The position numbers and the translations under genes are program-made. From the NCBI GenBank assembly GCA_013540605.1, contig JABVCK010000018.1, forward strand, positions 1 to 64,000: 64,000 nucleotides of DNA, in the 5' to 3' direction. Under the pieces are notes generated by a model that searched no databases, had not been told where the DNA came from, and saw only the letters and a program-made list of their open reading frames with translations. This stretch comes from Bacillota bacterium (lineage in GTDB: Bacteria; Bacillota; Clostridia; Ch29). The first letter of the stretch is position 1, and each line of letters opens with the position of its first letter. Positions 2,851-47,147 of this stretch are shown here, piece by piece.

Positions 2851-2940
2851 TATTTGCCGTATTTGGAATATCCGATCCTGATTGCTATAAACTAAAACAG
2901 GATTATACATCGGTGACGTATAATCCTGTGTCTTTTATCA
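2851..2940. repeat. Dispersed hairpin repeat, copy 1
   Basis: About 90 bp that recur with roughly 85% identity at 22585-22669. Both contain the run GCTATAAACTAAAACAGGAT and a hairpin built from ACAGGATTATAC and GTATAATCCTGT. On the minus strand the hairpin is followed by TTTTA, so it could terminate transcription. The rest of 2712-2850 shows no gene. Confidence 0.75.
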
Positions 2941-3109
2941 TACGAGCAAGTCTATAGTCCGAGTTCTGGGTTATTGATATCCAACTCGGTTATTCGTAGT
3001 GTTTTCAAGACTTCCAGTGTATTCAAAAAAACCGTTTTTCAGAACTTATATTCTGGACTACTATTTATACTGCATTTAAAAATCCGAACTATACTGACAT
3101 AATCCATCT
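2941..3109. repeat. Dispersed repeat with an rnpB 3'-end-like edge, copy A
   Basis: This stretch recurs at 29135-29290. Its first 28 bases match the sequence covering the 3' end of rnpB (36256-36284) at about 24 of 28 positions (AGTCTATAGTCCGAGTTCT here against AGTCTATAAGCCGAGTTCT in rnpB). It can fold through CCGAGTT and AACTCGG. It sits immediately after the hairpin repeat. Confidence 0.65.
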
Positions 3110-9125: not shown

Positions 9126-10460
9126 CTATCCCTCCTTGCTCAAATCCACATTTAATACCGTAGGTTCCTCAACTTCCATCTCAAGGGCTTCAAGCGCCTT
9201 AACAACTATACTCCTCCTGTAGCATCTCTCTCTATCCACCGGCATAGAAGGGTCCCCCACCGGGCTGGTAAAATCCCCTCCGAATACTATCCGGTTTGCT
9301 TTGACATTAGCTGCAATCGAAGTAAACGCAGTAATAATAGTATTAGGTATTCCCAACCTGTCCAGTTCTTTTGATATCGTTGCACCGCAACGGGTACATG
9401 TACCTCAGGTGGATGTCAGTATAGCTGCGTCCACCCCCGAGTTTTTGAGTTCCACAGCTATCCTGGCGCCAATATCCGTAGAATTCCTCACATTGGTGCC
9501 AATCCCACAGGTAGTAAAGAACTCCTTATATATTCCTTTCACCTTACCCTCCTGTTCGAGTATTCTAAGTTCATCTATAGGGACCAGGCGATTAGGGTCT
9601 TCATTTACAATTGTTGTATCATACCCGCCATGTATTGACTCATAATCATCCGGAGCCAGCGTTCTAAGCCCCTCTATATTATATTTGCCGTACGTTACCG
9701 AGAACGCCTGGCGCAGGCGGTCAGGGTTTCCCTTTGGTACAAGCCCTCCTGTGGTCACGACGGCAACAATCGCATTGCTTGCACTTTTTAATGGTGGTGC
9801 TGCGGGTACGCCCTCAAACTTTCTTAAAGGGATCTCCGTATTATAGCTTTCGTTCCTCAACTTCTTCAGAAGCATTTCAACACAGCGAACAGCGCCCGTC
9901 TTATCGTTGTATTCGTTACGCCGAAAACCGGTTGGTATATAGCCTTCCAGCCTTGCCGGTCCAACCTTTTCCTTTTTTGCCAGCTTTAGCGCCAAACCTG
10001 CAAGGGCCGGCAAGGCGTCGCGCATGCCGGATGCCGTTTCGGGAGTAGCTATGATATAGTTGTTTTTTACATACATTGATACTGCCGGGTTTTCCGTATG
10101 CATGGCGGAAACACTCGGGATGCCTAATCTACTCCTTACATAATCACATATTTTAGCGCATGCAACTCCATACCTTCCGGCATTGAATGCGGGACCGGCG
10201 ATAAACACATCGGGCCTTTCTTTGTTAACTATTTCATCCAGTTCCGGCAGGATACTCCGAAACTTTTCTTCATTATTTATAAAATTGTCTCCACATGCCA
10301 GAGTCTTGGTTATACACATTTCTTCATTCCATATTTTCTCAAGGGCCATTCCCGGTCCCTTACATCCTGTGAATGAAAGAAGTCCTATGTCTGCCTTTTC
10401 TTCTCCTCCTATACCGGCGTAAAACTGATTTATATAATGAACTGCTTTTAGCTTATCCAT
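9126..10460 (-). CDS. Selenoprotein GrdB/F/H-type subunit of reductase component B
   Basis: The catalytic selenoprotein partner of the GrdE-like protein. It attacks the bound substrate and hands the carbon fragment to selenoprotein A. The track splits it at TGA 9405-9407, but the frame reads LTST-U-GTCTRCGATISKELDRLG, the family's signature, giving 444 residues with Sec352. The N-terminus HYINQFYAGIGGEEKAD is also typical. Start at 10460, with GGAGGG 8 nt upstream. It is preceded by 177 bp of non-coding sequence after the permease gene, so it may have its own promoter. The track's 9126-9356 ORF is only the part after the UGA. Confidence 0.9.
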
Positions 10461-22584: not shown

Positions 22585-22669
22585 TATTTGCCGTATTTAG
22601 AATATCGAATCCGGCTGCTATAAACTAAAACAGGATCACACGTCGGTGGCGTATAATCCTGTTTTATCA
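22585..22669. repeat. Dispersed hairpin repeat, copy 2
   Basis: Second copy of the repeat at 2851-2940. Differences in the hairpin arms (GATTATAC to GATCACAC) keep pairing through G-U wobble on the minus strand. It lies between the sensor kinase gene and the insertion sequence; the rest of 22473-22710 shows no gene. Confidence 0.75.
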
Positions 22670-29034: not shown

Positions 29035-29134
29035 ACAAAAAACTTGCTTTTGATAATTATATTATAAGCAAAAATTCAATTAATAAAACTTAAAAAACAA
29101 AAAACCGATCAAGGTAATTTCAAACCTCGTAAGC

Positions 29135-29290
29135 ATATAAGCCGAGTTCAGGGTAGCCGATATCCAACCCGGTTACTCGCGGTGTTTTCATGGCTTTGGA
29201 CGATTTCGGAAAAGCCCGTTTTTAGAGACCTTTTTCTGAGCTGCTATTTTGCACTGAATCTAAGATGCGTACTATGCTAGACATAATCCC
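29135..29290. repeat. Dispersed repeat with an rnpB 3'-end-like edge, copy B
   Basis: Second copy of the element at 2941-3109. ATAAGCCGAGTTC is identical to the 3'-end region of rnpB. The partner arm is AACCCGG, and the pairing is kept by a G-U wobble on the minus strand, hinting at RNA structure. Confidence 0.6.
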
Positions 29291-29816
29291 TCTGCGACTT
29301 GGTCGCTCAACTTCTTAATCTGCGGCAGGGGTTTAGTTTTTGAAGGAAGTTATTATTAAACATAAGCTTGGTTAATATCAAGTTAACATTATGTGATATA
29401 GTTACTCTTGCTTTTTCTTCTCGCAACTCTTGGAACAAAAATCACCCCACCGGTAATCTATCCTACCGATAGGGTATTGTCAAGCAAAGGATCGTCCCCT
29501 GTTCTAAGTATTGTATTGGTGACATATATTGTAGGTATACCGGCATTTGGCAGTCTTAATGAATCATTCCCAGGTGTTATTTCATTTTTTATATATTTGA
29601 TATTTGCTTTTATCTATGTGTGTTTTTGTGCATTTTGCGTTAGAAGGTTTGTGATGTATCTAAACAAAACAAGGTTATTCCAATCCTTTTTTGATTGCAA
29701 AATTTAGGGGTAGATTTCTGTTTTAAAGAACTTTGAATACACTTGATGAAGCTACTTCCTTATCAAGTATAAATAAAATTACGGGGGAGAAGAATCTAAA
29801 AGATTGAAGCAATGAC
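29291..29816. other. Intergenic region without a supported gene
   Basis: The only long frame (29408-29707, plus) has no ribosome binding site and includes a GGGGAC-type repeat string, so I do not call it. Nothing else recognisable is seen in these 526 bp. Confidence 0.4.
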
Positions 29817-29859
29817 AAACAAAGTGCAACCTATAATCTTTATAGGTAGCACTTTGTTT
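29817..29859. terminator. Strong bidirectional hairpin terminator
   Basis: AAACAAAGTGC..CCTATAA and TTATAGG..GCACTTTGTTT form a long two-part stem with a TCT loop. It has an A/T run on either side. It precedes the transposon remnant. Confidence 0.75.
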
Positions 29860-29898
29860 ATTCAAAATTGGTATGAACTACTTTGAACTTAAGAAATT

Positions 29899-30500
29899 AA
29901 AAGGCCGGAGTTCTTGACAAGAGCTTCCGTCCGGAAGCCCAAGCCCTTATCGAACAGGGGAAACTTACTACTCTCGAGGACTTGAACAATTTCTTCTGGG
30001 CCTGGCTGGAGATGGGTTATCAGCAGAAGAAACACTCCTCCACAGCCGTTAAGCCGGTCAACCGGTTTAACAACTGCACACATCCCCTGCGCCGGGTTGA
30101 TATTGCTATACTTAACCAAATTTTTCTCTGGCAGGAAGAACGGAGTGTGGATAAAACCTGTTGTTTTTCCCTGGAAGGCAATACTTATGAGGTAGACCCT
30201 GTTCTGGCCGGCAAAAGAATTATCGTTAAGTACGACCCCTTTGACCTTACCCGGATTCAGGTTTGGTTTAGTGGAAAACAGTATACCGACGCCAAACTTT
30301 TAGATTTATCCAAACCCCATCATCCGAAAGTGCCCAAAGAAGATTGTTTGGTAAATACCCCGCCGACCAGCGGACTAAATTACCTTGAACTCTTGAAAAA
30401 AGCTTACGATGAAAACCTGGCCAAGACTCTGGGAGACTTGGCATATACCCGTCTGGGTACACCGGCTCAGGCAAAAGCCCGGGAAGGTGACGCCAAGTGA
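29899..30500 (+). pseudogene. C-terminal remnant of a Mu-like/rve transposase (A subunit)
   Basis: The frame reads back to about 29899 and matches the last third of transposases paired with ExeA-type ATPases: FFWAWLEMGYQQKKHSST, then RRVDIAILNQIFLWQEERSVDKTCCFSL, EGNTYEVDPVLAGKRIIVKYDPFDLTRIQVW. The catalytic rve domain is absent, so only the C-terminal Mu-type beta-barrel region remains. Its stop overlaps the GTG of the ATPase gene (GTGA), the normal coupling of such element gene pairs. Confidence 0.75.
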
Positions 30501-31297
30501 TCAGGGAATACTTCGGTTTGACAGGCGAACCTTTTGACAAGGACATTTCACCGGAGAATCTTTATCTATCCTTGCGGTTTAAGGAGTTATTGGCCCGGTT
30601 GGACTATGGTGTGAAAAAGCGCTGTTTCTGCCTGGTGACCGGGGATATTGGAGCAAATCAACAGCTATTCGTCTTTTGACCCGGAACCTGGACGAAAACC
30701 AGCATAAACTGCTTTATATATCCGACTCCAACCTAAAGCCCCGGGATTTTTACCGGGAGTTATTGTTCCAATTAGGCTCCAGTCCCGGTTATTTGCGGAT
30801 AGATGCTAAGCGGCAGTTTAACCAGCTAATTCTGGACTATTTCGAAAAACGGCGAATTACCCCCGTGGTCGTTATCGACGAGGCTCATCTGCTATCGCAC
30901 CAGATGCTGCAGGAAATCAGATTTTTAACTCAATTTTAAGATGGATTCCCTTTCTCCAATGGCCTTAATACTGGTAGGCCAACCTGAACTTAAGGGCACC
31001 CTGGCCATGCAGATTTTCCAGGCCATAACCCAAAGGATTCAGGTCCGCTATCATTTAGGCGGCCTGACTCTAGAGGAAACCGGCGCCTACATAGCCCATC
31101 ATTTAGAAGTGGTGAAAGCCCGCAGTCAGATTTTTAGCTCCGATGCAGTAAAAGAGATATTTGCATATTCCAAAGGAATCCCCAGGGTGATAAACAATCT
31201 ATGTATACAAGCTATGCTTGATGCCCGGATTCAGTCCAGCCATGTGGTTGACCGGGAAGGGGTGCTTAGGGTGATAGAGGATTTTCGCAAGTTTTAG
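30497..31297 (+). pseudogene. ExeA/TnsC-like AAA+ transposition ATPase, frameshifted twice
   Basis: Begins MIREYFGLTGEPFDKDI, the typical start of transposon ATPases. Four bases are missing inside Walker A (GDIGA, then a shifted KSTAIRLLTRNL would be expected), and one T too many in TTTT near 30937 shifts the frame after EIRFLTQF. Walker B is VVVIDEAHLL, and sensor/lid motifs follow (SKGIPRVINNLCIQAMLDA). Correcting both lesions gives about 267 residues, full length for the family. Non-functional as it stands. Confidence 0.8.
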
Positions 31298-31304
31298 TAT
31301 ATTT

Positions 31305-31331
31305 AGCCCACCGCCAATAAAGGTGGGCTTT
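31305..31331 (+). terminator. Terminator after the transposition ATPase remnant
   Basis: AGCCCACC and GGTGGGCT form an 8-bp stem followed by TTTCC, 8 nt after the stop. The T run is short. Confidence 0.55.
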
Positions 31332-31383
31332 CCGGTACCTTGATAAAATGACCGCCGCCATTGGCGGAAATGCCTAACCTGTT

Positions 31384-31453
31384 GACCACATTATTTGGCG
31401 TTCCTTGACAACCGCCACTGACGGTTATCAAACTGCCGCCAAATAATGTGGTC
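31384..31453. mobile_element. 70-bp palindromic miniature element
   Basis: Perfect 17-bp ends, GACCACATTATTTGGCG and CGCCAAATAATGTGGTC, enclose a second inverted pair (TTGACAACCG / CGGTTATCAA). The element interrupts a methyltransferase frame, changing its C-terminus. It looks like a MITE mobilised by a transposase not identified here. Confidence 0.6.
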
Positions 31454-31774
31454 TTCAACAATATGGTGAAGTACAGATATAACCAATATATAATCAAATG
31501 AGTTTTCCGGAACAGGTATACTATAACCATCCAATACATCAAAATTATGTTTTGAGTGTATATTTCTAGCATAATGTATTCTTCTCGAATCACAATCAAC
31601 ACCAAGATAGTTGTCCGGGTCAAAAATTGAGCTGCTTGAACCTATACCGCAACCGAAATCAAGAATTTTCTTATTGTTAAAGTCAAATTCATTTTCTAAT
31701 TTGTTATTTATAAATAAATCCATAAACCAGCTTGGCCTTACAAGCCAATTGTATAATCTGGGTGATAACTCCAT
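31454..31774 (-). pseudogene. Class I SAM-dependent methyltransferase, truncated
   Basis: The N-terminal part of a Rossmann-fold methyltransferase is clear: motif I KILDFGCGIGSSSS, motif II YLGVDCDSRRIHYARN, and FDYILVISVLHHI as motif IV. After HHIV the frame enters the 70-bp palindromic element and ends in unrelated sequence, so roughly half of a normal enzyme is missing. The substrate is unknown. The start at 31774 has GGAGG about 11 nt upstream. Confidence 0.75.
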
Positions 31775-31940
31775 GTTAAAAATATCCTCCCTAGTAAACT
31801 CTGATATTATTTAAAGTTCCCCGGTTACATATTGATTATAATGAGCAATAAAATGCTGTACTGGAATAAAATGATGAAATATGTGGCTATTTCCCATAAT
31901 AAAAATTTCTCATGGGTTAATAATATTTTTGGGTGATATA

Positions 31941-32459
31941 ATGATTTTTATTTACAATTGCTATGGAGGGACACATTCATCTTCACTTGCGTCAGCGATC
32001 CATTTAAAGAAGCTACCATTGGATAGGATTCCAACAAAGCAAGAAATATTGGGAACGGACTATTTTAACAAATTGAAATACAAGGATATGGGGAGGATAA
32101 TATTCCGGGGTATAGACGAAGACGGAAATAAGGTTTATAGTGTTGGCCGGGGAACATCAAAAGTTTTGATACCATGCCTTGAAAACCTAATAAAAATTCT
32201 TCACGATGAATGTGGTTTAAGTGAAAAAATCATATTTTCCAATATGTCGCCAACTGTTCCACCTGCTATGACGTTTGGAGGATTTTTTGCACGAGGGCTT
32301 GGAATAGAATTTATAGGAGTACCATTTTTGGTCATTGGTGCCAGGCAAGCCTACAACAGAATTATTGAGATAGTAAATTATACTAAGGAATCTGCAAAAA
32401 CTTTGAATGAACCAGTATTAGTACTTTTAAATGATAAACCCCAAAAACATATTAGGTAA
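31941..32459 (+). CDS. DUF3189 family protein
   Basis: A 172-residue protein starting MIFIYNCYGGTHSSSLASAIHL, the hallmark of DUF3189, a family found mainly in clostridia with no assigned function. The conserved pattern continues (DYFNKLKYKDMGRIIFRGIDEDGNKVYSVGRG). The internal ATG at 31941 follows GGGTGAT, so the upstream 20 codons in the track are not used. It is intact in a zone where most neighbours are decayed. Confidence 0.8.
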   Translation: MIFIYNCYGGTHSSSLASAIHLKKLPLDRIPTKQEILGTDYFNKLKYKDMGRIIFRGIDEDGNKVYSVGRGTSKVLIPCLENLIKILHDECGLSEKIIFSNMSPTVPPAMTFGGFFARGLGIEFIGVPFLVIGARQAYNRIIEIVNYTKESAKTLNEPVLVLLNDKPQKHIR

Positions 32460-32498
32460 GTAAAAAACTAAGAGACTACAGTGTATAGGGCAGGGATA

Positions 32499-32935
32499 CT
32501 ACTGTTTCTCCCTGAATATATAAAGAAGAAACCTTGCCCTTGAGCCTCCTACGTAGATGTCTGCATCTGTGCATACCCTGCTGTCCTTCTTTATACCTGT
32601 CAAGAAAACAATATCAGCCTCCAACCCCTTAAATGACCGGATTGTTTGGAACCTTACCGCATTTGTCCGGGATTCAATGTCCTCTGTCAGTGGCCATTCT
32701 TTTATCCGGTCAACCCCGCCAAGACAGCTATTTTCCTTCCTATAAGGGCTAAGAATTATTATGCGCTTCAGCTGCACACCCTGGCTTACCAGCCTCCCAA
32801 TCTCGTTGGCGATCATATTTTTTTCTTCTTCCGGAGTCTCCCACTCTAACTGTTTTACAGGAATGCCACCTTTAATGCTGCATTTCAGGTGAGCCCTGGG
32901 TATTATGTTATGTTGTCCAACCTTCACCCAGTTCG
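32499..32935 (-). pseudogene. C-terminal fragment of a UvrD-like helicase
   Basis: The region VRFQTIRSFKGLEADIVFLTG, followed by DADIYVGGSRARFLLYIF, matches the UvrD_C_2 end of superfamily I helicases; FKGLEAD corresponds to motif V. The ATPase half is absent, and the fragment is fused out of frame to an ADP-ribosylglycohydrolase remnant. The upstream 25 residues of the track ORF belong to that other gene's shifted frame. Confidence 0.65.
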
Positions 32936-33575
32936 GAGATTGCAGTTGTCGGCTCAACATCTCTATTACATAAATCCACTGCTTTTTGAATAAGCATGAA
33001 ACATTCTTCACTGCCCCTGTGTTTTTTAAGCTCGTTCAAAGCCCCTTCAACCGCATTCTCAATGTCAGACCCTTCAATAATCGAAGCAATAATATAGGCA
33101 AGGGCTCCTGCGGATAAATAGCCGGGCTGTTATTGATTGGCTCTTCAATTGTTCCTTGTTTACGGCTAAGAAGTGCGGAGATACAGGTGTTGCCCGGCGC
33201 CCTTTTTTGGAATAGCTGTTTCGTTCTGATTAGCCAGCCATCAAAAATCCAGTCAAGGTCTTTATTCTTTGGATAGCCCTGTGTATGAAGCCATCTTTGG
33301 TATGCATAATACACTACCGACGGAGGATGGCATATCCCTTCCTCCCTGCCTCTCGTTTCTGCACGCAAAAGGCCTTCAGCCGTGAACAATGTCATCTGGG
33401 TATCATCTGTAATCTCGGCCTTGCCATCGCTATTTTGCACCAGTTCAGTAATACCTCTGTCACCATATTGGTTTTTAATCTCTGTAGCACGCATAAACTC
33501 AACCGGCCAGCCTAGTGCATCACCTATAGCTCCGCCAAGCAGGCAGCCTCTGAAATGGTCCTGATCTCGTTTCAT
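32908..33575 (-). pseudogene. ADP-ribosylglycohydrolase with internal deletion
   Basis: The N-terminal domain is clear ([39 protein letters not shown]). After TIEEPINNS the middle of the enzyme is missing. In another frame the C-terminal part resumes ([16 protein letters not shown], then ISELGEGW) before stopping at 32908. Both ends of the gene are therefore kept and about 90-100 residues lost. The metal-binding DDT of the N-terminal half is present, but the C-terminal metal-binding motif is not seen. Start MKRDQD at 33575 after AAGGCGAG. Confidence 0.75.
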
Positions 33576-33614
33576 ACTAAGCATCTCGCCTTCTGTCCTT
33601 AATGTTTCTCTGGA

Positions 33615-34191
33615 TTATGAAAAGGCTTCAATCACCTTTTCTATTAACTCTCGCAGATCCTTTTCGCCATAATCTTTGATGTTTATCCAACTCCTGGGGT
33701 CAAGTTCGTCTTTATATTCGGGCAGGTATTCGCCATAGACATAACCGTTCCCGGTATGCGACAATTCACGGGCTACCTCTTTTCTGGCCCTTCTGCTTCC
33801 ATAATATTTGTAGCTAATCCTTCCGTCTTTGCCAATCTGCTCTGTAAGTTCAGGAAAGGATTTGAATATCTTGCGTTTTTGTTCAAGTGTTAGAAAACCC
33901 CTGTTGAAGAACTTCTGGACAGTACTTTCTCTGCTGGAGACAGGTTTGCCGACATGAGCCTGAGTTTTTTCTTCCTTCTTGGCCTGAATGCATATTGTAT
34001 CATTAGGGCTTGAAACAACAGTCTTCCAAGCATTTAATTCTTTAACGGCATTTTCTAACTGTTCGAAACTTGAAATTACTTTAATCCCCGCTGCCTCTGC
34101 CTTAAGCCTGAGAAATCTGTCATTTTACCAGTTTCTTTACAACATATGGGTCATAGATGAGGATATTGGTATCAAGCAAAACATATATCAT
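33615..34191 (-). pseudogene. PIN-domain protein with internal deletion and frameshift
   Basis: Starts MIYVLLDTNILIYDPYVVKKLV, a PIN-domain N-terminus with the first catalytic aspartate and a good ribosome binding site. It stops at once, and the frame resumes as NDRFLRLKAEAAGIKVISS, which corresponds to the last strand and helix of a PIN domain. The middle is missing. About 140 further residues follow without a stop to EKVIEAFS (33615), of a type I do not recognise (KFFNRGFLTLEQKRKIFKSF, SHTGNGYVYGEYLPEY). The track missed this frame because it lacks an ATG. Confidence 0.6.
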
Positions 34192-34229
34192 TATCACCAT
34201 TCCTTTAGTCATATTTTTCCATGAATCTA

Positions 34230-34263
34230 TTTCTACAAAATCCCAAAAAACCCTTTATTAATA
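34230..34263. repeat. 34-bp repeat shared by two PIN-gene upstream regions, copy 2
   Basis: Second copy of the element at 27495-27528, about 40 nt upstream of the PIN-domain pseudogene. Further along, near 34314-34354, TATACTTCTT and AAGAAGTATGC form an inverted repeat between the divergent genes. The rest of 34264-34430 shows no gene. Confidence 0.5.
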
Positions 34264-34435
34264 TGTCCGGCGAAATAAAGTATACTTACGGAATCAACAC
34301 AATGGCATCCTCTTTGTATACTTCTTAATCAGTTATAAAACAAAAGAAGTATGCTAATCATCCCCAAAAATTAATTACTTGGAACATCACTGAATATTAT
34401 ATACTGAAATGGTTATCATAGTCACTGTGACCACA

Positions 34436-34464
34436 TTGACCACAGCCATTTATACTTGTATAAT
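34436..34464 (+). promoter_or_regulatory. Sigma-A type promoter of the toxin-antitoxin-like pair
   Basis: TTGACC and TATAAT are separated by 17 nt, ending 17 nt before the ATG. A GTCAC-T-GTGAC palindrome sits just upstream of the -35 and could be an operator. Confidence 0.65.
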
Positions 34465-34481
34465 ATAAGGAGAGGGTAATT

Positions 34482-34952
34482 ATGTCTGAATTTGAGGGCA
34501 AAGGGGTTGAGAAAATGGAGGCAATACTTCAAAATAAATTCAATATTCGCGATACTAAACGGTTCTATTCCGACATAAATGAGAAGGCTTTGAACGGGAT
34601 TGAGGTTATTACCTATAACGCTATGGGTAAGACAGGCGAAGTATCCCATTTAAGCAAAAGGATCGTGGATTTCCTTTTCGACTCGCTTCAATTTCATATT
34701 TCCGAGGAATTCGACGAAGAACTGGGTGTTTATACTATTTCTGTCGATGATATCAACATATATGGTGAAGGTAGTACAAAGGCCGAAGCTATTGAAGACC
34801 TGCTAACCAGCATAATCGAATATACTGCCATATACGTCGAGCAGATTGATCTGTTTTCAAAAGTGGAGAACATTACCAAGCAGGGTTATATGTTGAAGGT
34901 TATCCGCTGCGGGAGCGATAGGGAAAAACTAAAGAAAGTGCTGGGCTTATAG
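34482..34952 (+). CDS. HicB-like antitoxin candidate
   Basis: A 156-residue protein. Residues 100-125 (SVDDINIYGEGSTKAEAIEDLLTSIIEYTAIYVE) resemble the HicB partial RNase H fold that binds HicA. The N-terminal 80 residues are not recognised. It starts 5 nt after GGAGAGGG and ends 1 nt before the next small gene, an antitoxin-first arrangement. The toxin-antitoxin assignment is inference from size, coupling and the HicB-like segment. Confidence 0.5.
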   Translation: MSEFEGKGVEKMEAILQNKFNIRDTKRFYSDINEKALNGIEVITYNAMGKTGEVSHLSKRIVDFLFDSLQFHISEEFDEELGVYTISVDDINIYGEGSTKAEAIEDLLTSIIEYTAIYVEQIDLFSKVENITKQGYMLKVIRCGSDREKLKKVLGL

Positions 34953-34953
34953 T

Positions 34954-35196
34954 ATGCCGATACGCTTTACTCAGGGTGACATTAAACGACTCCTGAATTA
35001 TTTCAATATGAAGCCACTCAAGAAGGGTAGCTTTATCTATGGTGGCATCGGTAAAGACGGCAAATGGCGTACCTGCAAATTTGACTACCATAAAGACAGT
35101 GACCAGCTCGCTACTGGAACTGGAAAAAGCATAGCCCTGTCACTCGGCTTTAAAGATACTTTAGAAATGAAGGATTTCATAGATAATAACCTATAG
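34954..35196 (+). CDS. Small basic protein, possible toxin partner
   Basis: An 80-residue lysine-rich protein (IKRLLNYFNMKPLKKGSFIYGGIGKDGKWRTCKFDYH). It has the size and alternating helix-strand look of a HicA-like dsRNA-binding fold, but I do not see HicA's usual GSH motif, so the family is not certain. It is coupled to the preceding HicB-like gene and followed by a terminator. Confidence 0.45.
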   Translation: MPIRFTQGDIKRLLNYFNMKPLKKGSFIYGGIGKDGKWRTCKFDYHKDSDQLATGTGKSIALSLGFKDTLEMKDFIDNNL

Positions 35197-35199
35197 AAA

Positions 35200-35236
35200 G
35201 GCAGATGCCGAAAAAGTTGGACATCTGCTTTTCCTT
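35200..35236 (+). terminator. Terminator of the toxin-antitoxin-like pair
   Basis: GCAGATG and CATCTGC pair around a 14-nt loop and are followed by TTTTCCTTTTCT, 4 nt after the stop. Confidence 0.75.
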
Positions 35237-35394
35237 TTCTGGCTATAAAGAAGATTGAAGTATCACACATCCATATCCGCTGCCTATATAGATTACGATA
35301 AAGGTATCACAAGGTAAAAATATCCATACCACAAACCATGCATTTTATTGTATTATGTTAACCATAAACATTTTATAGGATGGTGGTTAACACA

Positions 35395-36146
35395 ATGGCA
35401 AGGATTGATAAATATTCGAAGCTGATAACAGTAACCCTGAAATCCAAGCTGTAAAGGAGGCTATTAAGAAAACCAAGGATAAACGGATGTACCAGCGTTA
35501 TATGGTTATACTTTATCACCTTAAAGGATATATCAATGTAGATATATCCAAGATGGTTGACCTATGCCAGCATACGATAGGTACTTACGTTAATAAATAT
35601 AAAGAAAATGGCCTTCCCGGTCGGCACTTGGTCATAGCCCTGGAGCTCCACGCAGGCTTTCTGATGAGCAGGAAGCAAAGCTTGTTGAAGTTATCACAAC
35701 CAAAACACCGGATGAAGTCGGCTACCCAAATAAAAAGAATTGGACTGTCAATATCATTAAGCATTGGGTATTGGATAACTTCGGAGTAGAATACAGCTAT
35801 ACCGGCATGGTAGATGTAATTCACCGGCTAAAACTTAGTTATACCAGACCGACATATACCCTGGCTAAAGCAGACCCGCAGAAACAAGAAGAGTTTAAAC
35901 AAGAGTTTGAGCTTTTAAAAAAATCTTCTTGACGGAAAAATTGACCATCTTCTCTTTGAAGATGAAACGATGATTCGTGATTATCAGGCTATCCAAAAAA
36001 CTTGGTTTCTAAAAGGTAAGCAGCGAATCATCCCCACATACGGCAAGCATGAGGGAGTGAAGCTTATGGGTGTACTTAATTATGAAACAGGGCATGTTTA
36101 CTGCGTCGAGGAAAAGAAATATGATGCTGAAGTCTTTCTATCGTAA
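35395..36146 (+). pseudogene. IS630-family transposase remnant
   Basis: Scattered over three frames: MARIDKYSK at 35395, an HTH-like stretch (YMVILYHLKGYINVDISKMVD), then ADPQKQEEFKQEFELLKK and LLFEDETMIRDYQAIQKTW, the last holding the DE of the IS630 catalytic core. It ends in KYDAEVFLS, where the final catalytic part is missing. Several frameshifts and a truncated 3' end make it non-functional. The gap 35237-35394 holds no gene. Confidence 0.78.
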
Positions 36147-36221
36147 TCTATATAGTTTGTAATTTTTATAACTATTTTATTAACAACAAATCAGTGTGTT
36201 AAAAAACTGCTTGCTTGACAC

Positions 36222-36247
36222 AAAAAAAACACGCCTTATCGACGTGT
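36222..36247 (-). terminator. Terminator of rnpB
   Basis: On the minus strand AACACG and CGTGTT pair around TCGATAAGG and run into eight T residues, 10 nt after the end of the RNase P RNA. Confidence 0.85.
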
Positions 36248-36256
36248 TCATTTTCA

Positions 36257-36669
36257 ACGAGTAAGTCTATAAGCCGAGTTCTGTATTAGATGGTCATCTA
36301 TCTAGGCCTGCTGTTGCCAGCAGGCTCAAGCAACCTACCACGGGGCACGGCGGGCCGCCGCTTTTTTCGCCCCTACTTGGTCTTGCTCCAGATGGGGTTT
36401 ACAGAGCCATGCAGTCACCTGCACGCTGGTGAGCTCTTACCTCACCTTTCCACCCTTACCCGGCACTTAACTGAACACAGCATATGCATCTTGCTGCAAT
36501 CCGGATATATTTATGCTTCTACTATGCTTAGTTAAGTGCCGGGCGGTATATTTCTGTTGCACTTTCCTTGGAGTCGCCTCCACCGGGTATTACCCGGCAC
36601 CCTGCCCTATGGAGCTCGGACTTTCCTCGTTGGCCCGGACGGGCCCCCGCGACCATCCGACTTACTCGT
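36257..36669 (-). ncRNA. rnpB: RNase P RNA (bacterial type)
   Basis: The catalytic RNA that matures tRNA 5' ends. Hallmarks on the minus strand are GAGGAAAGTCCGAGCTCC, GGCAGGGTGCCGGGTAATAC, AAAGTGCAACAGAAA, GGTGAGGTAAGAGCTCACC and the terminal ACTCGGCTTATAGAC. The ends pair as helix P1 (ACGAGTAAGTC / GACTTACTCGT), which sets the boundaries at about 413 nt. ORFs predicted across it on the plus strand are spurious. Confidence 0.95.
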
Positions 36670-36729: not shown

Positions 36730-37146
36730 TTAAACTATCTGGTCGTCTTTGCTATCCATTCCTCGGTTGGCAAGTTTATCAGCAAGCTTATTGTTTTCCC
36801 TTCTCACGTGCCTTATCGAGTATTTCTCAAACTTATCAAGGTATGCCTTGACGATACCGTACAAAGGAATCAATCCCTCGTTCTTTACTTTGTACTCACC
36901 ATTTACCTGCTTAACTACGAGCTCGCTGTCCAAATAAATCTCCACGGATTTTGCATTGAGCGTCAGGGCCTCTTCCAGTGCCCTGACCAGCGCGTAGTAT
37001 TCCGCAATGTTATTGGTCTGTGTGCCTATGTACCGGCTGATTTCTGCAACCAGGTTCTCCTCTTCATCGAAAATTGCTATTCCTATTCCGGCATCGCCGG
37101 GATTCCCGCGCGAGCCTCCGTCCGTATATATGATTAGTTTATCCAT
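36730..37146 (-). CDS. Ribonuclease HI family protein
   Basis: A 138-residue RNase H domain that cuts the RNA strand of RNA-DNA hybrids. The DEDD residues are visible: D in YTDGGSRGNPG, E in NNIAEYYAL, D in YLDSELVV and D in NKLADKLAN. It is the compact form without a hybrid-binding domain. The start at 37146 follows GGGGG; the track's 15 earlier codons are upstream leader. It precedes rnpB and follows the zinc-ribbon gene. Confidence 0.9.
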   Translation of the reverse strand: MDKLIIYTDGGSRGNPGDAGIGIAIFDEEENLVAEISRYIGTQTNNIAEYYALVRALEEALTLNAKSVEIYLDSELVVKQVNGEYKVKNEGLIPLYGIVKAYLDKFEKYSIRHVRRENNKLADKLANRGMDSKDDQIV

Positions 37147-37157
37147 TGTTACCCCCG

Positions 37158-37877
37158 TTATTCCGATCTCATATATAGTATTCTGCCACATGTCTCACAG
37201 TTCAGTATTTCTTCATCCTTCAGCCGTTCCATGCCTATAACCAAAATTTCCATGTGGCATCCGCTGCATTTCCCGTCTTCTATGGGCACAACCGCAGACT
37301 GTACTCCTAATCTTACCCTTTTGTATCTATCCATAACCCTATCTTCTATCTTATATACCAATTTTTCCCTGCTTTTACTAAGCACTTCGAGTTCTGCTTT
37401 GGCTTTTTCTTCTCCTCTCGAATATTTTTCCTTTAACTCATTAAAACTATTTTTGTATTTGAGAAGCTTTTTTTTGCTCTCTTTAATCTGGCCTTCCAGG
37501 CTCTTCCTCTCGTCTTCGCACACCTTGCAGATATTTTCAAGAGCCTGTATATTCCTCTGCATTTCTTCCAGGTTCTTCTGCATGCCCTCAAGCTGTTTGG
37601 CATTTGAGATGCTTCCGCTATAGAGCTTCTCTTCTGACTTCTGATAATTGTTTTTCAATTCTTCGGCCTTTGCCCTGTTGCTTCTTGCAGTTTTTATTGT
37701 TTCTCTGAGGTCTGCTTCGTTTTTATCCAGCAAATTCTTTTCCTCGTCAAACCTGCTTTTAATTTCCCTGAGTTTATGTTTGCCGCTATACATGCTAATC
37801 TCTTTTTCAAGTTCACCGATCCTGCTGTCTATCTTTTGCAGTTCCCATAAAAGGTCAATTTGCCTCATTAGAACCAT
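37158..37877 (-). CDS. Coiled-coil zinc-ribbon protein (CdsZ/DUF164-like)
   Basis: A 239-residue protein. Residues 1-175 form a long coiled coil rich in K/E. The C-terminus is a C4 zinc ribbon (GKCSGCHMEI, then LNCETCGRIL). The family is widespread next to Nif3-like genes; its function is not settled, with ribosome- or metal-linked roles suggested. The ATG at 37877 follows GGAGAGG, and the gene begins 30 nt after the Nif3-like stop. Confidence 0.85.
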   Translation of the reverse strand: MVLMRQIDLLWELQKIDSRIGELEKEISMYSGKHKLREIKSRFDEEKNLLDKNEADLRETIKTARSNRAKAEELKNNYQKSEEKLYSGSISNAKQLEGMQKNLEEMQRNIQALENICKVCEDERKSLEGQIKESKKKLLKYKNSFNELKEKYSRGEEKAKAELEVLSKSREKLVYKIEDRVMDRYKRVRLGVQSAVVPIEDGKCSGCHMEILVIGMERLKDEEILNCETCGRILYMRSE

Positions 37878-37906
37878 CAACTCCTCTCCAAAACCTGGAA
37901 TACAAG

Positions 37907-39025
37907 TCAAACTAAAACAAATGGATCGATATCTACCCCGGATGCTATTACATCGATTCCTACGTTCATGTCCTTAGCTTCTCCTTCGATATGCCCTTTA
38001 ATTATATCAACCACCACTTTCTCTGTCCCATAGTGTCCTGCATCCACTACCGCCATACCTAATCCGATGGCCTTATGGGCATCATGGTACTTGATATCCC
38101 CTGTAAGGTAAACATCGGCACCCTTGGAAGCTGCTTCCTCTATTAAACTTCCTCCGCTTCCTCCGCACAGGGCAACCCTTAGGACCTTTTTATCCAGTTT
38201 GCCTGAACATCTTACATACTTTAACTCCAATGCTTCTTTAACCCTCTCAGCAAACTCCTCAAGAGTCATCTCCTTCTCAAGTTTGCCCACTCTACCCAGA
38301 CCGTAACCCTTCCTGGCGTTTTTAAGGCCGTATATGTCGTAAGCCACTTCCTCATAGGGGTGTGCTTTCAGCATCGCCCCTAAAACCTTTGAGGTGATCT
38401 CCTCAGGAACTATTGTCTCCAGCCTGATTTCTTCCACTCTTTCTAAAGCTCCCTGTTGACCTATGAAAGGGTTGGTGCTTTCTCCGGGCATGAATGTTCC
38501 CGTTCCTTTCACCTGGAAGGCGCAATGGCTGTAGTTCCCGATCCATCCTGCCCCTGCTTCAGCCATCGCTGTCCTCACATCCTCTTCATATCCCACCGGC
38601 ACAAATACCACTATCTTGTTAAAGCATCTCTTATCCGTCACCTGTAGAGTTTCTACATCCTTAAGGTTTATCCTTTGGGCAAGCATGTGGTTGATTCCGC
38701 CTGGAGCGCTGTCCAGGTTTGTATGAGCGCAATACAGGACTATATCGTTTTTTATGAGCATAGATGCAACCCTCCCCGTGAAGCTGTCCTCCCTTAGTGT
38801 TTTAACCGAGTCGAACAGGAACGGGTGGTGGGTCACTATCATATCAGCCCGCTTCTTTACTGCCTCTTCTGCCACCTCCTCCAAGAGGTCAACGGCCACG
38901 AGTATCCTCTTTACTCTTTTTTCGGGGCTGCCGATCTGAAGCCCAACGTTGTCCCACTTTTCCGCCAGGGACTCCGGCGCCAGTTTATCCAGCATCTCAA
39001 TGATGGTTTTGCATGCCAATGACAT
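37907..39025 (-). CDS. Nif3-like dinuclear metal-centre hexameric protein
   Basis: A 372-residue YqfO/NIF3 family protein, with a NIF3 domain split by a PII-like insert (residues about 130-235, KIVVFVPVGYEEDVR.. HPYEEVAYDIYGL). Metal ligands are in VTHHPFLFD, HTNLD (with APGG following) and DAGHYGTEK. It is proposed to act as a GTP cyclohydrolase-like or metal-chaperone enzyme; the true role is unclear. It is directly downstream of the YigZ gene and upstream of the zinc-ribbon gene, a common clostridial order. Confidence 0.92.
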   Translation of the reverse strand: MSLACKTIIEMLDKLAPESLAEKWDNVGLQIGSPEKRVKRILVAVDLLEEVAEEAVKKRADMIVTHHPFLFDSVKTLREDSFTGRVASMLIKNDIVLYCAHTNLDSAPGGINHMLAQRINLKDVETLQVTDKRCFNKIVVFVPVGYEEDVRTAMAEAGAGWIGNYSHCAFQVKGTGTFMPGESTNPFIGQQGALERVEEIRLETIVPEEITSKVLGAMLKAHPYEEVAYDIYGLKNARKGYGLGRVGKLEKEMTLEEFAERVKEALELKYVRCSGKLDKKVLRVALCGGSGGSLIEEAASKGADVYLTGDIKYHDAHKAIGLGMAVVDAGHYGTEKVVVDIIKGHIEGEAKDMNVGIDVIASGVDIDPFVLV

Positions 39026-39031
39026 GGAGGT

Positions 39032-39673
39032 TCACCTCCGCTGACTTATTTCAACATACTCCTCGCCTGCAAACCTTGCTTCTGCCTGCCCGTTTGTCAG
39101 GTTTGCAACCCAATCGTTGAACCTTGCTTCCTCTCCCGACGTTACATATACGTACATCTTGACCTTTTCCAGGTACTGGGTTTCTTTAGCCATATACGGT
39201 GAACTCCCCAACTCGTTTTCCACCTTGCCGAGCCACGGGTAATCCATCTCAATGCTCATTATGCTCATCAGCTTTCGCTCCACGACGCCGGCCGCATCTA
39301 TGCCCTCCGCGGCAGCCCTGCCGTACGCCCTTATAAGCCCACCGGCACCCAGCTTTATTCCCCCGAAGTACCTTGTTACCACAACAACGGTATCCTTAAG
39401 ATCCCTTTTCCGTATTACTTCCAGAATAGGCACCCCTGCGGTGCCGCCCGGCTCGCCGTCATCATTTGCCTTCTGTATGTGGCTATGCTCTCCTATTACA
39501 TACGCAAAGCAGTTGTGGGATGCATCCCAGTACTTCTTTTTAATGGATTTGATGAAGCCCTGGGCCTCCTCCTCGGTGGACGCCCGTGTTACCTGGGCAA
39601 TGAACCTGGACTTTTGTATAACGATCTCCTGCTCTCCGTAACCTTTTACTGTAAAATAGGAGGTTAACTGCAA
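39032..39673 (-). CDS. YigZ/IMPACT family protein
   Basis: A 213-residue protein with the UPF0029/IMPACT N-terminal domain (KKKYWDASHNCFAYVIG, NDDGEPGGTAGVPILEV, VTRYFGGIKLGAGGLIRAY) and a C-terminal DUF1949-type domain. Bacterial YigZ is linked to translation or ribosome stress, but its activity is unsettled. I take the TTG at 39673 as start because GGGAGGTG lies 8 nt upstream. It then overlaps the trmK end by 10 nt. The track's start 42 nt earlier lies inside trmK. Confidence 0.87.
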   Translation of the reverse strand: MQLTSYFTVKGYGEQEIVIQKSRFIAQVTRASTEEEAQGFIKSIKKKYWDASHNCFAYVIGEHSHIQKANDDGEPGGTAGVPILEVIRKRDLKDTVVVVTRYFGGIKLGAGGLIRAYGRAAAEGIDAAGVVERKLMSIMSIEMDYPWLGKVENELGSSPYMAKETQYLEKVKMYVYVTSGEEARFNDWVANLTNGQAEARFAGEEYVEISQRR

Positions 39674-40356
39674 GTCTCCATCACCTCCCGGTACCGCCTG
39701 ATTCTTTCCAAACACTCCCGCCGTCTTTCCTGCCCTTCTTCTGTGCAGGCATCTTCCAGATTGCTGACGATATCTGAGAGTTCCTTAATCTTCTTTCGGG
39801 CCAGCTCGGGTAGCAGCGGATCTCCCTTTTCAATTAGCCTTCTTCCCACTTCGAAGTAAAAACTGTCGTCTTCCTTCTGCTCCCCATGGACAGCAGCCAT
39901 TACCTGATAGATTTTTTCTTTCTCTCTCACCAGGCACTCATCCTCTATTGCAAACCGGTTTTCCAGCAACCATTTCCTGACTACTTCATGGGCATTCATA
40001 GGCTGCAGCAGCAGCTTGGCTGCCTTCTCCAGAACACCGGCCCCATCCTTCAATATGTTCCTTATAAGAACACCGCCCATTCCGGCTATAATAACGGTAT
40101 CAACTTCACCGGGCTTTAGAACTTCCAGGCCGTTTCCAAGGCGTGTTTCCACCTTGTCTTGCAGTCCCATGGCTTCCACCAGTTCCACCGCTTTGCTAAG
40201 CGAACCACGGCTCACATCCGTTACCACCGCTCCTATCGCCCTTCCTGTTTTTATTAGGTAAACAGGAAGGTAGCCGTGATCGGTACCGATATCCGCTATC
40301 CTGCTCCCCGGTGGCACCATATCCGCAATAGCCTTCAGGCGGGGGTTCAGCTTCAT
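39664..40356 (-). CDS. trmK: tRNA (adenine(22)-N(1))-methyltransferase
   Basis: A 230-residue SAM methyltransferase of the TrmK family, modifying A22 of tRNAs. Motif I is IADIGTDHGYLPVYLI, and the family-specific VDTVIIAGMGGVLIRNIL and LLQPMNAHEVVRKWLLEN are present. A coiled C-terminal tail follows. It overlaps the HAD gene by 4 nt. The position downstream of rpoD matches Bacillus and clostridial genomes. Confidence 0.92.
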   Translation of the reverse strand: MKLNPRLKAIADMVPPGSRIADIGTDHGYLPVYLIKTGRAIGAVVTDVSRGSLSKAVELVEAMGLQDKVETRLGNGLEVLKPGEVDTVIIAGMGGVLIRNILKDGAGVLEKAAKLLLQPMNAHEVVRKWLLENRFAIEDECLVREKEKIYQVMAAVHGEQKEDDSFYFEVGRRLIEKGDPLLPELARKKIKELSDIVSNLEDACTEEGQERRRECLERIRRYREVMETCS

Positions 40357-41081
40357 CGTCCATTCCCCGCTATTTCGGGAAGTCTCTCAACCAGGTCATA
40401 CAGGTCCCGGTAACTCCCCCTGTAATCCACCGGAGGAATGTCCGCATTACGGCTTATTATGTAGTCCTCCAGAAGAAACGTCTTCATACCCAGCCTGTGG
40501 GCAATCATATCCTCTTCCACATCGTTGCCTACCATCATACAGCATTCCGGTTCCTTGTTAATCATTTCCATAATCTCCTTGTAGTATTCAATCCGGGGTT
40601 TGCAGTAGTGCATAATCTCAAAGGCCGTTATTAGTTTAAAGACATCCACATCAATATTCGCCCATCGGACACGCTCTTCTATGGCTATCTGAGGGAACAG
40701 GGGATTCGTGGCCAGCACAACATCATACCCTTTTTTTGTAAGCACAGTAATAATGTCTTTACAGAGAGGCTGTTCACAGGCCGCTGCCTTCAGTCCCTTG
40801 AATTCGTTTGAGTAAAACTCGCCGAACCTTTCCATCAGGTGAGTAATATCGAATCCCAGCAAACGGGAAAACTCCTCTTCAAAGGCCTGCTGGTTAGTCT
40901 TGTGGGGCTCAGTGTTTTCAATCATATAGTTTGTCGCCAGCATAATGTTCTTAACAAAAGCCTTTGGCTCCATAACATCATAGAACTTTTTTCCCACTGC
41001 TTCAAAATACGCTTTCATGAATTTTTCAATGTCCATCGGCAGCAATGTACCGTCAAGGTCGAACAGTATTGTATCTATCAC
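40353..41081 (-). CDS. HAD-family hydrolase
   Basis: A 242-residue haloacid-dehalogenase-like phosphatase: motif I ILFDLDGTLLPMD, motif II VLATNP, motif III lysine near HYCKPRIEYY and motif IV CMMVGNDVEEDMIAHRLGM. A helical cap lies between motifs I and II. The GTG start at 41081 has AGGAGG 7 nt upstream. The substrate is unknown. Confidence 0.9.
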   Translation of the reverse strand: MIDTILFDLDGTLLPMDIEKFMKAYFEAVGKKFYDVMEPKAFVKNIMLATNYMIENTEPHKTNQQAFEEEFSRLLGFDITHLMERFGEFYSNEFKGLKAAACEQPLCKDIITVLTKKGYDVVLATNPLFPQIAIEERVRWANIDVDVFKLITAFEIMHYCKPRIEYYKEIMEMINKEPECCMMVGNDVEEDMIAHRLGMKTFLLEDYIISRNADIPPVDYRGSYRDLYDLVERLPEIAGNGR

Positions 41082-41222
41082 TTGGCATCCTCCTGTAATG
41101 CAATAATTTTATCTATACTCTAATTCTACATTCATTTAAAAGAATTGGCAACTAAGGCAGTCTATTCAAAGCGTATTTTGCAGCAGAAAAGGAAAACTAA
41201 AGATTGATAGGAGGCAAATCGC

Positions 41223-41390
41223 ATGGACGACAGCAACGAAAAAACAAAAGAGAAAGAGCGTATCCCACTGCCGAAATACGGTTGGGGAGGTTCGACTCCC
41301 GGATGGGAGGAAAATACGGAAAAGGTCGCGCGGCTGGGGGAAATCAACAAACTGCTGGATAAAAGGTCAGGGGACACACCGCTGCTTTAA
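41223..41390 (+). CDS. Small 55-residue protein, unknown
   Basis: Too short for the track. It has an ideal AGGAGG ribosome binding site 8 nt before the ATG. The sequence is charged at the start (MDDSNEKTKEKERIPLP) and has a tryptophan/glycine patch (KYGWGGSTPGWEENTEKV). The last residues (SGDTPLL) and the stop come from a GGGGACACACC repeat, so the native end may have been replaced. I do not recognise a family. Confidence 0.5.
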   Translation: MDDSNEKTKEKERIPLPKYGWGGSTPGWEENTEKVARLGEINKLLDKRSGDTPLL

Positions 41391-41476
41391 CGGAAAGGGG
41401 ACACACCTTCACTTTGGAGCTATGCTCCTGGGAGGGAGGAATGTCCCCGATGTATTCCTTGCCGCGGAATGTCCCC
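41370..41476. repeat. GGGGACACACC/GGAATGTCCCC repeat, copy 1
   Basis: About 107 bp containing GGGGACACACCGCTGCTTTA, a second GGGGACACACC, a GGAGCTATGCTCC-type core and GGAATGTCCCC ends. Strongly similar units are at 51675-51784 and 53238-53372. Confidence 0.8.
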
Positions 41477-41513
41477 AATAAAAAACGCGAGAGCCAGATT
41501 AAATGAAACTCAT

Positions 41514-41555
41514 ACTAGTTGGTAGTTCGTAGTTGGTAGATCACTGGCAACTGCG
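41514..41555. repeat. AGTTGGTAGTTCGTAG repeat, copy 1
   Basis: TAGTTGGTAGTTCGTAGTTG followed by GTAGATCACTGGCAACTG. The same words recur, mostly in reverse complement, at 52605-52792 and 54196-54292. Confidence 0.7.
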
Positions 41556-41579
41556 CAAAAGGAATGTCCCCCAATAAAT

Positions 41580-41605
41580 AAAAAAGCACTTTGGCAAGTG
41601 CTTTT
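41580..41605 (-). terminator. Terminator after the tRNA genes
   Basis: AAAAGCACTT and AAGTGCTTTT pair around a 4-nt loop, followed on the minus strand by a T run, 2 nt after the tRNA-Met CCA end. Confidence 0.85.
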
Positions 41606-41606
41606 G

Positions 41607-41682
41607 TGGTGGGCCTTCAGGGATTCGAACCCCGGACCGACCGGTTATGAGCCGGTTGCTCTACCAACTGAGCTAAAGGCCC
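41607..41682 (-). tRNA. tRNA-Met (CAT)
   Basis: A 76-nt cloverleaf with encoded CCA: acceptor GGGCCTT/AAGGCCC, D arm GCTC..GAGC, anticodon loop CTCATAA, T arm ending GGTTCGAATCC. The 5' end and D loop fit elongator tRNA-Met; a lysidine-modified tRNA-Ile2 also has a CAT anticodon and cannot be fully excluded. Confidence 0.88.
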
Positions 41683-41687
41683 GAATA

Positions 41688-41763
41688 TGGCTCCTCAGGC
41701 TGGATTCGAACCAGCAACCCCTCGGTTAACAGCCGAGTGCTCCACCGTTGAGCTACTGAGGAA
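41688..41763 (-). tRNA. tRNA-Asn (GTT)
   Basis: A 76-nt cloverleaf with encoded CCA: acceptor TTCCTCA/TGAGGAG, anticodon stem CTCGG/CCGAG with loop CTGTTAA, T loop GGTTCGAATCC. It is 5 nt upstream of the tRNA-Met, in one transcript. Confidence 0.93.
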
Positions 41764-41780
41764 TAGGGTTAACAATATAT

Positions 41781-41808
41781 ATTATACACGTTAATATATA
41801 GTTGTCAA
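41781..41808 (-). promoter_or_regulatory. Promoter of the tRNA-Asn/tRNA-Met transcript
   Basis: TTGACA (41803-41808) and TATAAT (41781-41786) match consensus exactly with a 16-nt spacer, about 18 nt before the tRNA-Asn 5' end. Confidence 0.87.
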
Positions 41809-41836
41809 CCGATAAATTGCTGCTAATTCATAGTAA

Positions 41837-42964
41837 TTATTCTAGGTAGTCTTTGAGTTTCTTACTCCGACTAGGGTGCCTTAGTTTCCTTAAGGCCTTG
41901 GCTTCTATCTGCCTTATTCTCTCCCTGGTTACGTTAAATTCCTTTCCTACTTCCTCAAGGGTCCTTACCCTGCCGTCATCCAGGCCGAACCTAAGCCTGA
42001 GAACCTTTTCTTCCCTTGGTGTAAGGGTATCCAGAACATCCACCAGCTGCTCCCTGAGCATGGTAAATGCAGCTGCCTCTGCGGGTGCAGGTGCATCGTC
42101 ATCGGGTATAAAATCACCCAGGTGACTATCTTCTTCTTCTCCAATAGGTGTTTCAAGGGATACTGGCTCCTGGGCGATTTTTAGTATCTCCCGTACCTTC
42201 TCCTCCGACAGCCCCATTTCATCTGCTATCTCTTCGGGCAGCGGCTCCCTCCCCAGTTCCTGCAAAAGCTGCCTTGATACTCTTATAAGCTTGTTAATCG
42301 TTTCAACCATATGCACCGGTATCCTGATCGTTCTAGCCTGGTCGGCAATCGCCCTCGTTATTGCCTGCCTTATCCACCAGGTTGCATAGGTGCTAAACTT
42401 ATACCCTTTTCTATAGTCAAACTTCTCTACTGCTTTAATCAACCCCAGGTTTCCCTCCTGGATTAGGTCAAGAAAAAGCATTCCCCTTCCAACGTATCGT
42501 TTAGCTATGCTGACGACCAATCTCAGGTTGGCTTCCGCCAGCTTTCTTTTCGCTTCTTCTTCCCCGTTTTCTATCCTCTTTGCAAGCTCAATCTCCTCAT
42601 CCGCTGTCAAAAGGGGTATCTTCCCTATCTCCTTAAGATACATCCTCACCGGGTCATCAATATTTACTCCTTCGGGAACCGTGATTTCACCACTGTCTAT
42701 GTCTTCCAGTTCGTCCTCATGCACTATGTCATTTCCCAAATCTTCATCCCCGATAATGTCAATCCCCATCTCATCAAGATTGTCGTATATCTTTTCTATC
42801 TGTTCAGGATCAAGCTCAATCTCCTCAAGGGTATCCATTATTTCTTTATAGGTAAGCATACCCTTGCTTTTCCCCTTCTCAATGAGTTCCTTTACCCCAT
42901 CAATCTTGTCTTCACTAAGCTCTAATTTCTTGTTATTCTCTTTGGATGCATTTTCGATCTTCAT
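41837..42964 (-). CDS. rpoD: RNA polymerase primary sigma factor RpoD (SigA)
   Basis: A 375-residue housekeeping sigma. Region 1.1 is N-terminal; region 1.2 has [16 protein letters not shown]; region 2 has [31 protein letters not shown] and [17 protein letters not shown] (the -10 reader); region 3 follows; region 4 has [24 protein letters not shown]. The downstream ATG (42964) is better spaced from GGGAGGGG than the first. It forms the conserved dnaG-rpoD unit. Confidence 0.97.
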
Positions 42965-42992
42965 TGGCATCCCCTCCCTTCTGTACAGCCCT

Positions 42993-44813
42993 CTACAAGC
43001 CCCTTAAATTTTTCTGTATATCAACAAATTCTGACCAGTATTTTTCAAGTGCGGTTTCCTCCTCCTGTGTCCTGTCGGCTTTTGATGCGAGCCTGTCAAT
43101 CTCACTCTTAAGCTTCATACCCCTTGTCTTATATTTATGAATACGGATAGTCCGTATGCAATCCTCAACCAATTTCCCAGCTTCTCCCCCATCCAGCGGC
43201 AGCTCTGCATCTATCACAGCCACCACCCTGTTTATCTCTTCCTGGTCATGAAAAAAATTGACCAGGTCTGCCGGCAGCAATTCTTCATCTATATATTTTG
43301 ACTTTATAATCTTAAACAGGTTCCTGTACAAATCATCTTCAAAATCCTCAGCTTCTATCTTTGATGTTATTTCTTTTCTGAAGTTTGCATCTCTAATCGC
43401 CATAACTAATATATTCTTCTCAGCCTGAATATTTGCAGGTCTGAAAGCAATATTATACTCCTCAGCACTATTATTATGCCTATTTTTACCATATATATTC
43501 CTGTTTTGCCCTTTATCCCTGTTTCTTACCGTTTCGATTTCTTTTCTCAGTGCGCTTTCATACACCTGGACCCTTTGAGAGATTTCCTTCACGTATTCTG
43601 CAAGCTCCAGGCTGCTGTCCAGCCTCGCCAGCAAGGCTGCTGCTTCATGTAAAAAATCAAACTTCTGCTGCCTATCCCTTATGTCGTATTTCCTTTCCAA
43701 AAGCTTTATTTTATAATCCATCAGCGAAGGAGCTTTTCTTACTAGTTCGTAGAAAGCTTCGCTGCCGTAGTTTCGTACAAACTCGTCGGGGTCTTTGCCA
43801 TCCGGCAGTTCTATTATTCTGACTTTGCAGCCAACCGACTGCAGGACATCCATCCCCTTTATGGTTGCCGAATGCCCGGCCGCATCCGAATCATACGCTA
43901 TTACTATATTTCTGCTGTATCTCTTAAGCAGTTCTCCCTGGCTGGGAGTAAAGGCCGTACCCAAAGATGCTACCGAATTTTTTATACCCCTCTGGTGAAG
44001 TGAAATAACATCCATATAGCCTTCAACAACTATTATCTCTCCGCTGTCTGTATGTTTTTTTGCTATATTTAACCCGTACAGGTTGTTCCCCTTTGTAAAG
44101 ACCGGGGTCTCCGGAGAATTGAGATACTTTGGAGTACCGCCCTCCTCGATAGTCCTCCCTCCAAACCCGATTACCCTGCCTCGCACATCGATGATAGGAA
44201 AAATAATCCTGTCCCTGAACCTGTCGTACATACCGCTTCCTGACTTTCTCTCGCTCATCAGCCCCGATATTCCAATGCTTTCCTCTGTAAACCCCTTTGA
44301 TTCCAGGTACTTCAAGAGGTTGTCCCAACCTTCCGGGGCATAACCAAGGCCGAACTCACGTATGGTCTTTACATCCAGCCCCCTGTCCTTCAGGTACTGT
44401 TTTGCCTTTCTGCTTCCTGTCAGGCAGTTCACAAAAAACCGGGCCGCTTCCAGGTTTATTCTGAACAGTTCCTCCTGAAGCTTATACCTTCTGCTGTACC
44501 CGCTGTCAAACTGCTGCTGGGGCAGAGGTATCCTGCTCCTTTCAGCAAGAAATTTGATCGCATCAATGAAATCAAGATTTTCTATGTTCATAACAAAGGT
44601 GATTACGTTTCCTCCCGCTCCGCATCCGAAACAGTGGTACAGCTGTTTTTCTGCGGATATATAGAAGGATGGGGTGTCTTCCCTATGGAAAGGGCATAAC
44701 CCTCTATACCTGTCACCGTTTTTGGATAGCGTCATATATTCGGCGGCGACTTCCACCAGGTCATTGCTTTCCCGGATTTTATTTATAAATTCCTCAGGAA
44801 AACTGTATTTCAT
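42993..44813 (-). CDS. dnaG: DNA primase
   Basis: A 606-residue primase that makes RNA primers at the replication fork. CHC2 zinc ribbon: [11 protein letters not shown] and HCFGCGAGG. The Toprim domain has [15 protein letters not shown] and [13 protein letters not shown] with D-x-D. The C-terminal helicase-binding region follows residue 440. The ATG at 44813 follows AAGGTGG. It lies 28 nt upstream of rpoD. Confidence 0.96.
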
Positions 44814-44822
44814 CTTAACCAC

Positions 44823-46073: not shown

Positions 46074-46091
46074 AAGGTGGAGATGTTTGAT

Positions 46092-47126: not shown

Positions 47127-47147
47127 TCCCCTGCCCGGCTGCTTTTT

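Follow-up and report, generated by a model that had tools for sequence, protein, structure and literature searches.

Why does the 3' end of an RNase P RNA gene recur twice in the DNA downstream of that gene, each time followed by a conserved sequence of its own? The window, by which we mean the whole stretch of 64,000 nucleotides analysed here, contains a class A RNase P RNA gene (rnpB) on the minus strand at 36254–36668 (Rfam RF00010, 312.7 bits). An initial annotation had claimed that positions 2941-3109 and 29135-29290 carry about 28 bases of the rnpB end and then continue with conserved sequence of their own, and our BLAST comparisons within the window agree with this. The 3' strands of helices P4 and P1 of rnpB (36257–36283, minus strand) are identical to copy A (2942–2968, minus strand) at 24 of 27 positions, and rnpB 36261–36281 is identical to copy B (29129–29149, minus strand) at 19 of 21; both copies adjoin a shared arm.

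A search of the whole genome with a 21-mer from the rnpB end, allowing up to 3 mismatches, finds four sites only: rnpB, copy A (with 3 mismatches), C31:6203 and C24:108713. The reversed control pattern gives 0 matches, so the match to the rnpB end is not a product of chance. Copy B is too decayed for the 21-mer and was recovered through its arm. Contig C31 carries an exact 27-base match, and the rnpB end is also repeated, as a displaced end, on contig C85 of the relative G003; across genomes, the match thus extends to C31, C24 and G003:C85. Copies A and B are both 3' fragments that lie downstream of rnpB on the minus strand, in the orientation of rnpB, and A, B and C31 share the rnpB base that bounds the match.

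We consider it highly probable that A and B are displaced rnpB 3' ends marking the edges of islands integrated at the 3' end of rnpB. The idea in the initial annotation of an element that took up or aims at the rnpB end is essentially correct; this end is best understood as the core of an attachment site, with 36257–36283 as the core at the regenerated gene. In the mechanism we propose, the rnpB 3' end would serve as the attachment site of integrative elements, and each element would bring, in its own attachment site, a terminator preceded by a duplicate of the final ~27 bases of rnpB (the 3' strands of P4 and P1). Site-specific recombination would sever the old 3' end from rnpB and set the element's copy in its place, keeping the ribozyme intact, and the old end with its old terminator would be moved to the far edge of the element. 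The conserved arm beside A and B would represent the distal end of related elements. If A and B are displaced ends, two islands of about 7 kb and 26 kb stand in tandem downstream of rnpB. A point against this reading is that the core of copy B is short and decayed.

Arms and terminators beside the copies

The arm common to A and B measures ~140 bp. Beside copy A (2969–3109, minus strand) it would form the distal end of the second island, and beside copy B (29150–29293, minus strand) that of the first. Aligned over core and arm, the two copies are 72% identical over 160 columns (E about 4e-14), and the inner ~45 bases of the copy A arm are also common to C31 and G003:C85. A sequence model built from the core plus the inner arm, run on 391 genomes of the class, gives full-length matches only in the window genome (G000) and in G003. 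Its weaker matches, where checked, are rnpB genes themselves and were rejected.

The conserved arm, the terminator-like hairpins after the copies and an inverted repeat, CCGAGTT/AACTCGG, with one G-U pair in copy B, could alternatively be features of a minus-strand family of structured small RNAs whose members took over or imitate the 3' end of RNase P RNA, for instance competing for the protein of rnpB. The initial annotation had described the inverted repeat as pairing kept by G-U wobble. The repeat and the G-U of copy B are real, but the change is one-sided and the pairing is not kept: the stem is broken in C31 and G003:C85, and the four aligned copies (A, B, C31 and G003:C85) contain 0 compensatory pairs. 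The arms of A and B fold no better than shuffled sequences (z-scores of +0.69 and +0.94), Rfam has no substantial match to copy A with the E limit raised to 10, and the scanned stretch upstream of copy A holds no promoter-like site on the minus strand. In copy A, moreover, the conserved GGCTTA is changed to GGACTA. The terminators that follow the same core are unrelated to one another and are of rnpB's own types. The suggestion of a structured RNA did not survive these comparisons, and we regard it as very improbable; the missing covariation counts against the RNA alone, not against A and B as displaced gene ends. The copies also contain a direct repeat, RRTAACC: two AATAACC units in A and two AGTAACC units in C31, in each case 19 bases apart, and a less regular form in B and C85. 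Judged from these four sequences, it is more suggestive of two protein-binding sites.

The sequence after the core varies. The present rnpB ends in terminator T1 (36221–36248, minus strand), whose hairpin recurs at rnpB of the relatives G004 and G005 and at the displaced end on G003:C85. Copy A is followed by T2 (2897–2929, minus strand), a 15-pair hairpin that also follows the core on C24 and that an alignment of rnpB ends identifies as the rnpB terminator type of G001 and G003. A GC-rich hairpin follows the core on C31, and a pattern scan finds a weak terminator-like hairpin after copy B (29110–29129, minus strand). The two types are swapped reciprocally between genomes: in G000 rnpB has T1 and the displaced end T2, and in G003 rnpB has T2 and the displaced end T1. 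Such a reciprocal exchange is what integration with a regenerated gene end predicts.

A second copy of T2 with about 50 further bases lies inside the second island (22585–22669, minus strand; 84% over 90 columns against the copy A region). It has no rnpB core and is possibly an older, decayed junction. This duplicate would also fit a different history, in which ordinary duplication or homologous recombination produced ectopic rnpB ends with their terminator, which spread with flanking DNA, and no site-specific recombinase took part. The family has undergone many rearrangements; the upstream neighbours of the core gene DUF3810 differ; on C24 an rnpB end with T2 stands in another context; and rnpB as a whole is duplicated in G318, another genome of the class. 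Because the C24 end lies away from rnpB, it also speaks against the island model, which needs a rearrangement or a second event there. Duplication nevertheless appears unlikely to us: the same match boundary in A, B and C31, the adjoining shared arm and the orientation are predictions of site-specific integration, of which direct examples with an integrase and an empty site exist, as described below.

On C24, the rnpB-end copy and T2 (L019:860-968, G000:C24) are directly followed by a sequence starting GTGCGCCCGGCATGAGCGG, a start that we take to resemble the 5' end of a group IIC intron. Group IIC introns insert after terminators. At the gathering score, Rfam gives no match for this sequence. 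More decayed copies of the rnpB end or of T1 occur at G003:C85:43564 (L187 around 1564) and on G005:C124 (L122 around 13963), one of them 3.3 kb downstream of rnpB in G005, which suggests more old junctions.

Candidate islands and their setting in relatives

Read as islands bounded by displaced rnpB ends, the two segments differ in content. The first (29150–36256, about 7 kb), between rnpB and copy B, holds decayed gene fragments, with pieces of a transposase, an AAA protein, a methyltransferase, a helicase and an ADP-ribosylglycohydrolase-like protein. The second (2969–29128, about 26 kb), between copies B and A, contains metabolic and mobile genes, comprising a grd reductase, a permease, an aldehyde ferredoxin oxidoreductase, PTS regulators, a transposase and toxin-antitoxin-like genes. 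For the grdB of this block, relatives in the genomes of the family reach only 44-47%, consistent with acquired DNA. Integration of islands would explain why a metabolic block of grd reductase, aldehyde oxidoreductase and PTS regulators stands downstream of rnpB, a place taken by other genes in relatives. A SECIS_4 element lies at window 9367-9404, directly after the TGA that closes the grdB frame (9405-10460, minus strand), and the frame probably continues through selenocysteine.

Remnants of a Mu-transposase C-terminal region and an AAA ATPase, at 29982-31297 near copy B, raise the possibility of a Tn7-like transposon targeting the rnpB 3' end, and such transposons do resemble the proposed elements in their fixed, safe site at a gene's end. 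Tn7-type insertion, however, duplicates about 5 bases rather than a 27-base piece of a gene, and it does not exchange the gene's terminator, so the duplicated rnpB end and the exchanged terminators are not expected of it. The transposase and AAA genes are also truncated, and there is no TniQ-like gene among the genes scanned; we give this explanation hardly any weight. As for an integrase, a PF00589 search finds no gene or fragment on the window contig, C21, and we accordingly claim the islands of the window only as decayed and integrase-less.

The synteny around rnpB is broken on one side. The upstream, rnhA side (window 36730 to 48278) is collinear with G001, G003, G004 and G005 except for small gaps, and the downstream side shares no gene in place with any of these four. 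DUF3810 lies just beyond copy A. Since its upstream neighbours vary among relatives, it is unsupported as the ancestral neighbour of rnpB, and the empty site for the window genome's own islands was not recovered in the relatives compared.

Two further recombinase loci were seen in these genomes. On G003:C6 (L120:19084-19335), near the contig end and 1.7 kb downstream of rnpB, lies the C-terminal part (83 aa) of a tyrosine integrase, which may be what is left of the integrase of an rnpB island. In the window genome, G000:C27 (L168:2130-5713) carries three tyrosine recombinases in a row, resembling a recombinase-in-trio. Positions 108-129 of L168 carry 22 bases that recur exactly at the truncated end of C31, next to the copy of the rnpB end there; despite these common bases, the trio was not adopted as the integrase of the window islands.

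Integrase-bearing elements at rnpB

As no integrase is left in the window, we infer the action of a tyrosine integrase in this genome. The recombinase step is directly supported elsewhere, in phages and in G365, a genome of the same class. In prophage IMGVR_UViG_3300035388_000034, one edge holds rnpB, which the end of the stretch truncates (147 bits in Rfam), and the opposite edge a displaced end in which about 40 bases form a block of identity. After rnpB come a terminator of the phage, repeats and a tyrosine integrase of 399 aa. In phage IMGVR_UViG_3300006217_000071, an attP-like site contains CAGAACCCGGCTTATAGACTTACTT, the rnpB end, and is accompanied by a terminator of its own and repeats; an integrase of 393 aa lies about 100 bases away. 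In G365 the rnpB end is found at C1:3496454; a displaced counterpart stands 63 kb downstream on the same strand, at C1:3559509, and a tyrosine integrase of 424 aa (L260:6680-7954) lies 1.5 kb away from the latter. In its congeners G136 and G200, the left side of G365 is matched by the DNA ahead of the rnpB end and the right side by the DNA, zapA included, that follows this end; as both flanks are matched, these genomes provide an intact empty site for the 63-kb island. The prophage and the G365 island resemble the window in integrating at the rnpB 3' end, in bringing their own terminator to rnpB and in a displaced far end, and differ from it in retaining integrases and in having arms unlike those of A and B. 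Core, arm, orientation, terminator exchange and one-sided synteny break are thus observed around the window's rnpB, and the same architecture is observed with an integrase elsewhere, with an empty site for G365.

Islands and prophages that enter tRNA and tmRNA genes by means of tyrosine integrases are known (Islander, PMC4383910), and their displaced fragments must lie downstream of the gene in the same orientation (PMC4383910). As in the window, the regenerated RNA gene and a downstream 3' fragment in the same orientation mark the ends of such islands, and tandem arrays occur. The window has the intact target gene at one edge and 3' fragments at the other, downstream and in the same orientation; an integrase inside the island is absent from the window and present in G365 and the two phages. 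The target differs as well, rnpB being outside Islander's method. In the papers that could be searched we found no description of rnpB as an integration site, which does not prove that none has been given. The kind of system as such is known from tRNA and tmRNA genes.

Taken across these genomes, we lean towards regarding rnpB as a recurrent integration hotspot in this class, where the terminator and the 3' strands of P4 and P1 would be exchanged again and again for those of mobile DNA. If so, parts of an essential ribozyme, a strand of the catalytic P4 helix and a strand of P1, come from mobile DNA, and the tolerance of the ribozyme to exchange of these strands and the terminator by incoming elements becomes testable. 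Displaced rnpB ends would also give Islander-type finders, which are based on tRNA and tmRNA pieces, another precise island marker, and would reveal islands that have lost their integrase.

A scan of about 85,000 genomes with GATATCN{3,5}ACCCNGAACYCGG gave 73 matches, near the number estimated for chance and none of them useful, and a search of INPHARED phage records for the core gave chance matches only. Among viral matches, L224 was rejected as lying within a coding region, and most others look like host rnpB genes inside the record. An exact 18-base pattern of the rnpB end matches in 58 genomes of the class and has two matches in three of them, the window genome, G365 and G318. The second match in G318 was rejected as a displaced end, being part of a second whole rnpB gene. 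On G318:C1, two complete class A RNase P RNA genes (L255:3407-3761 and L256:8055-8427) stand about 24 kb apart on the same strand, with metabolic genes of sugar-acid type between them.
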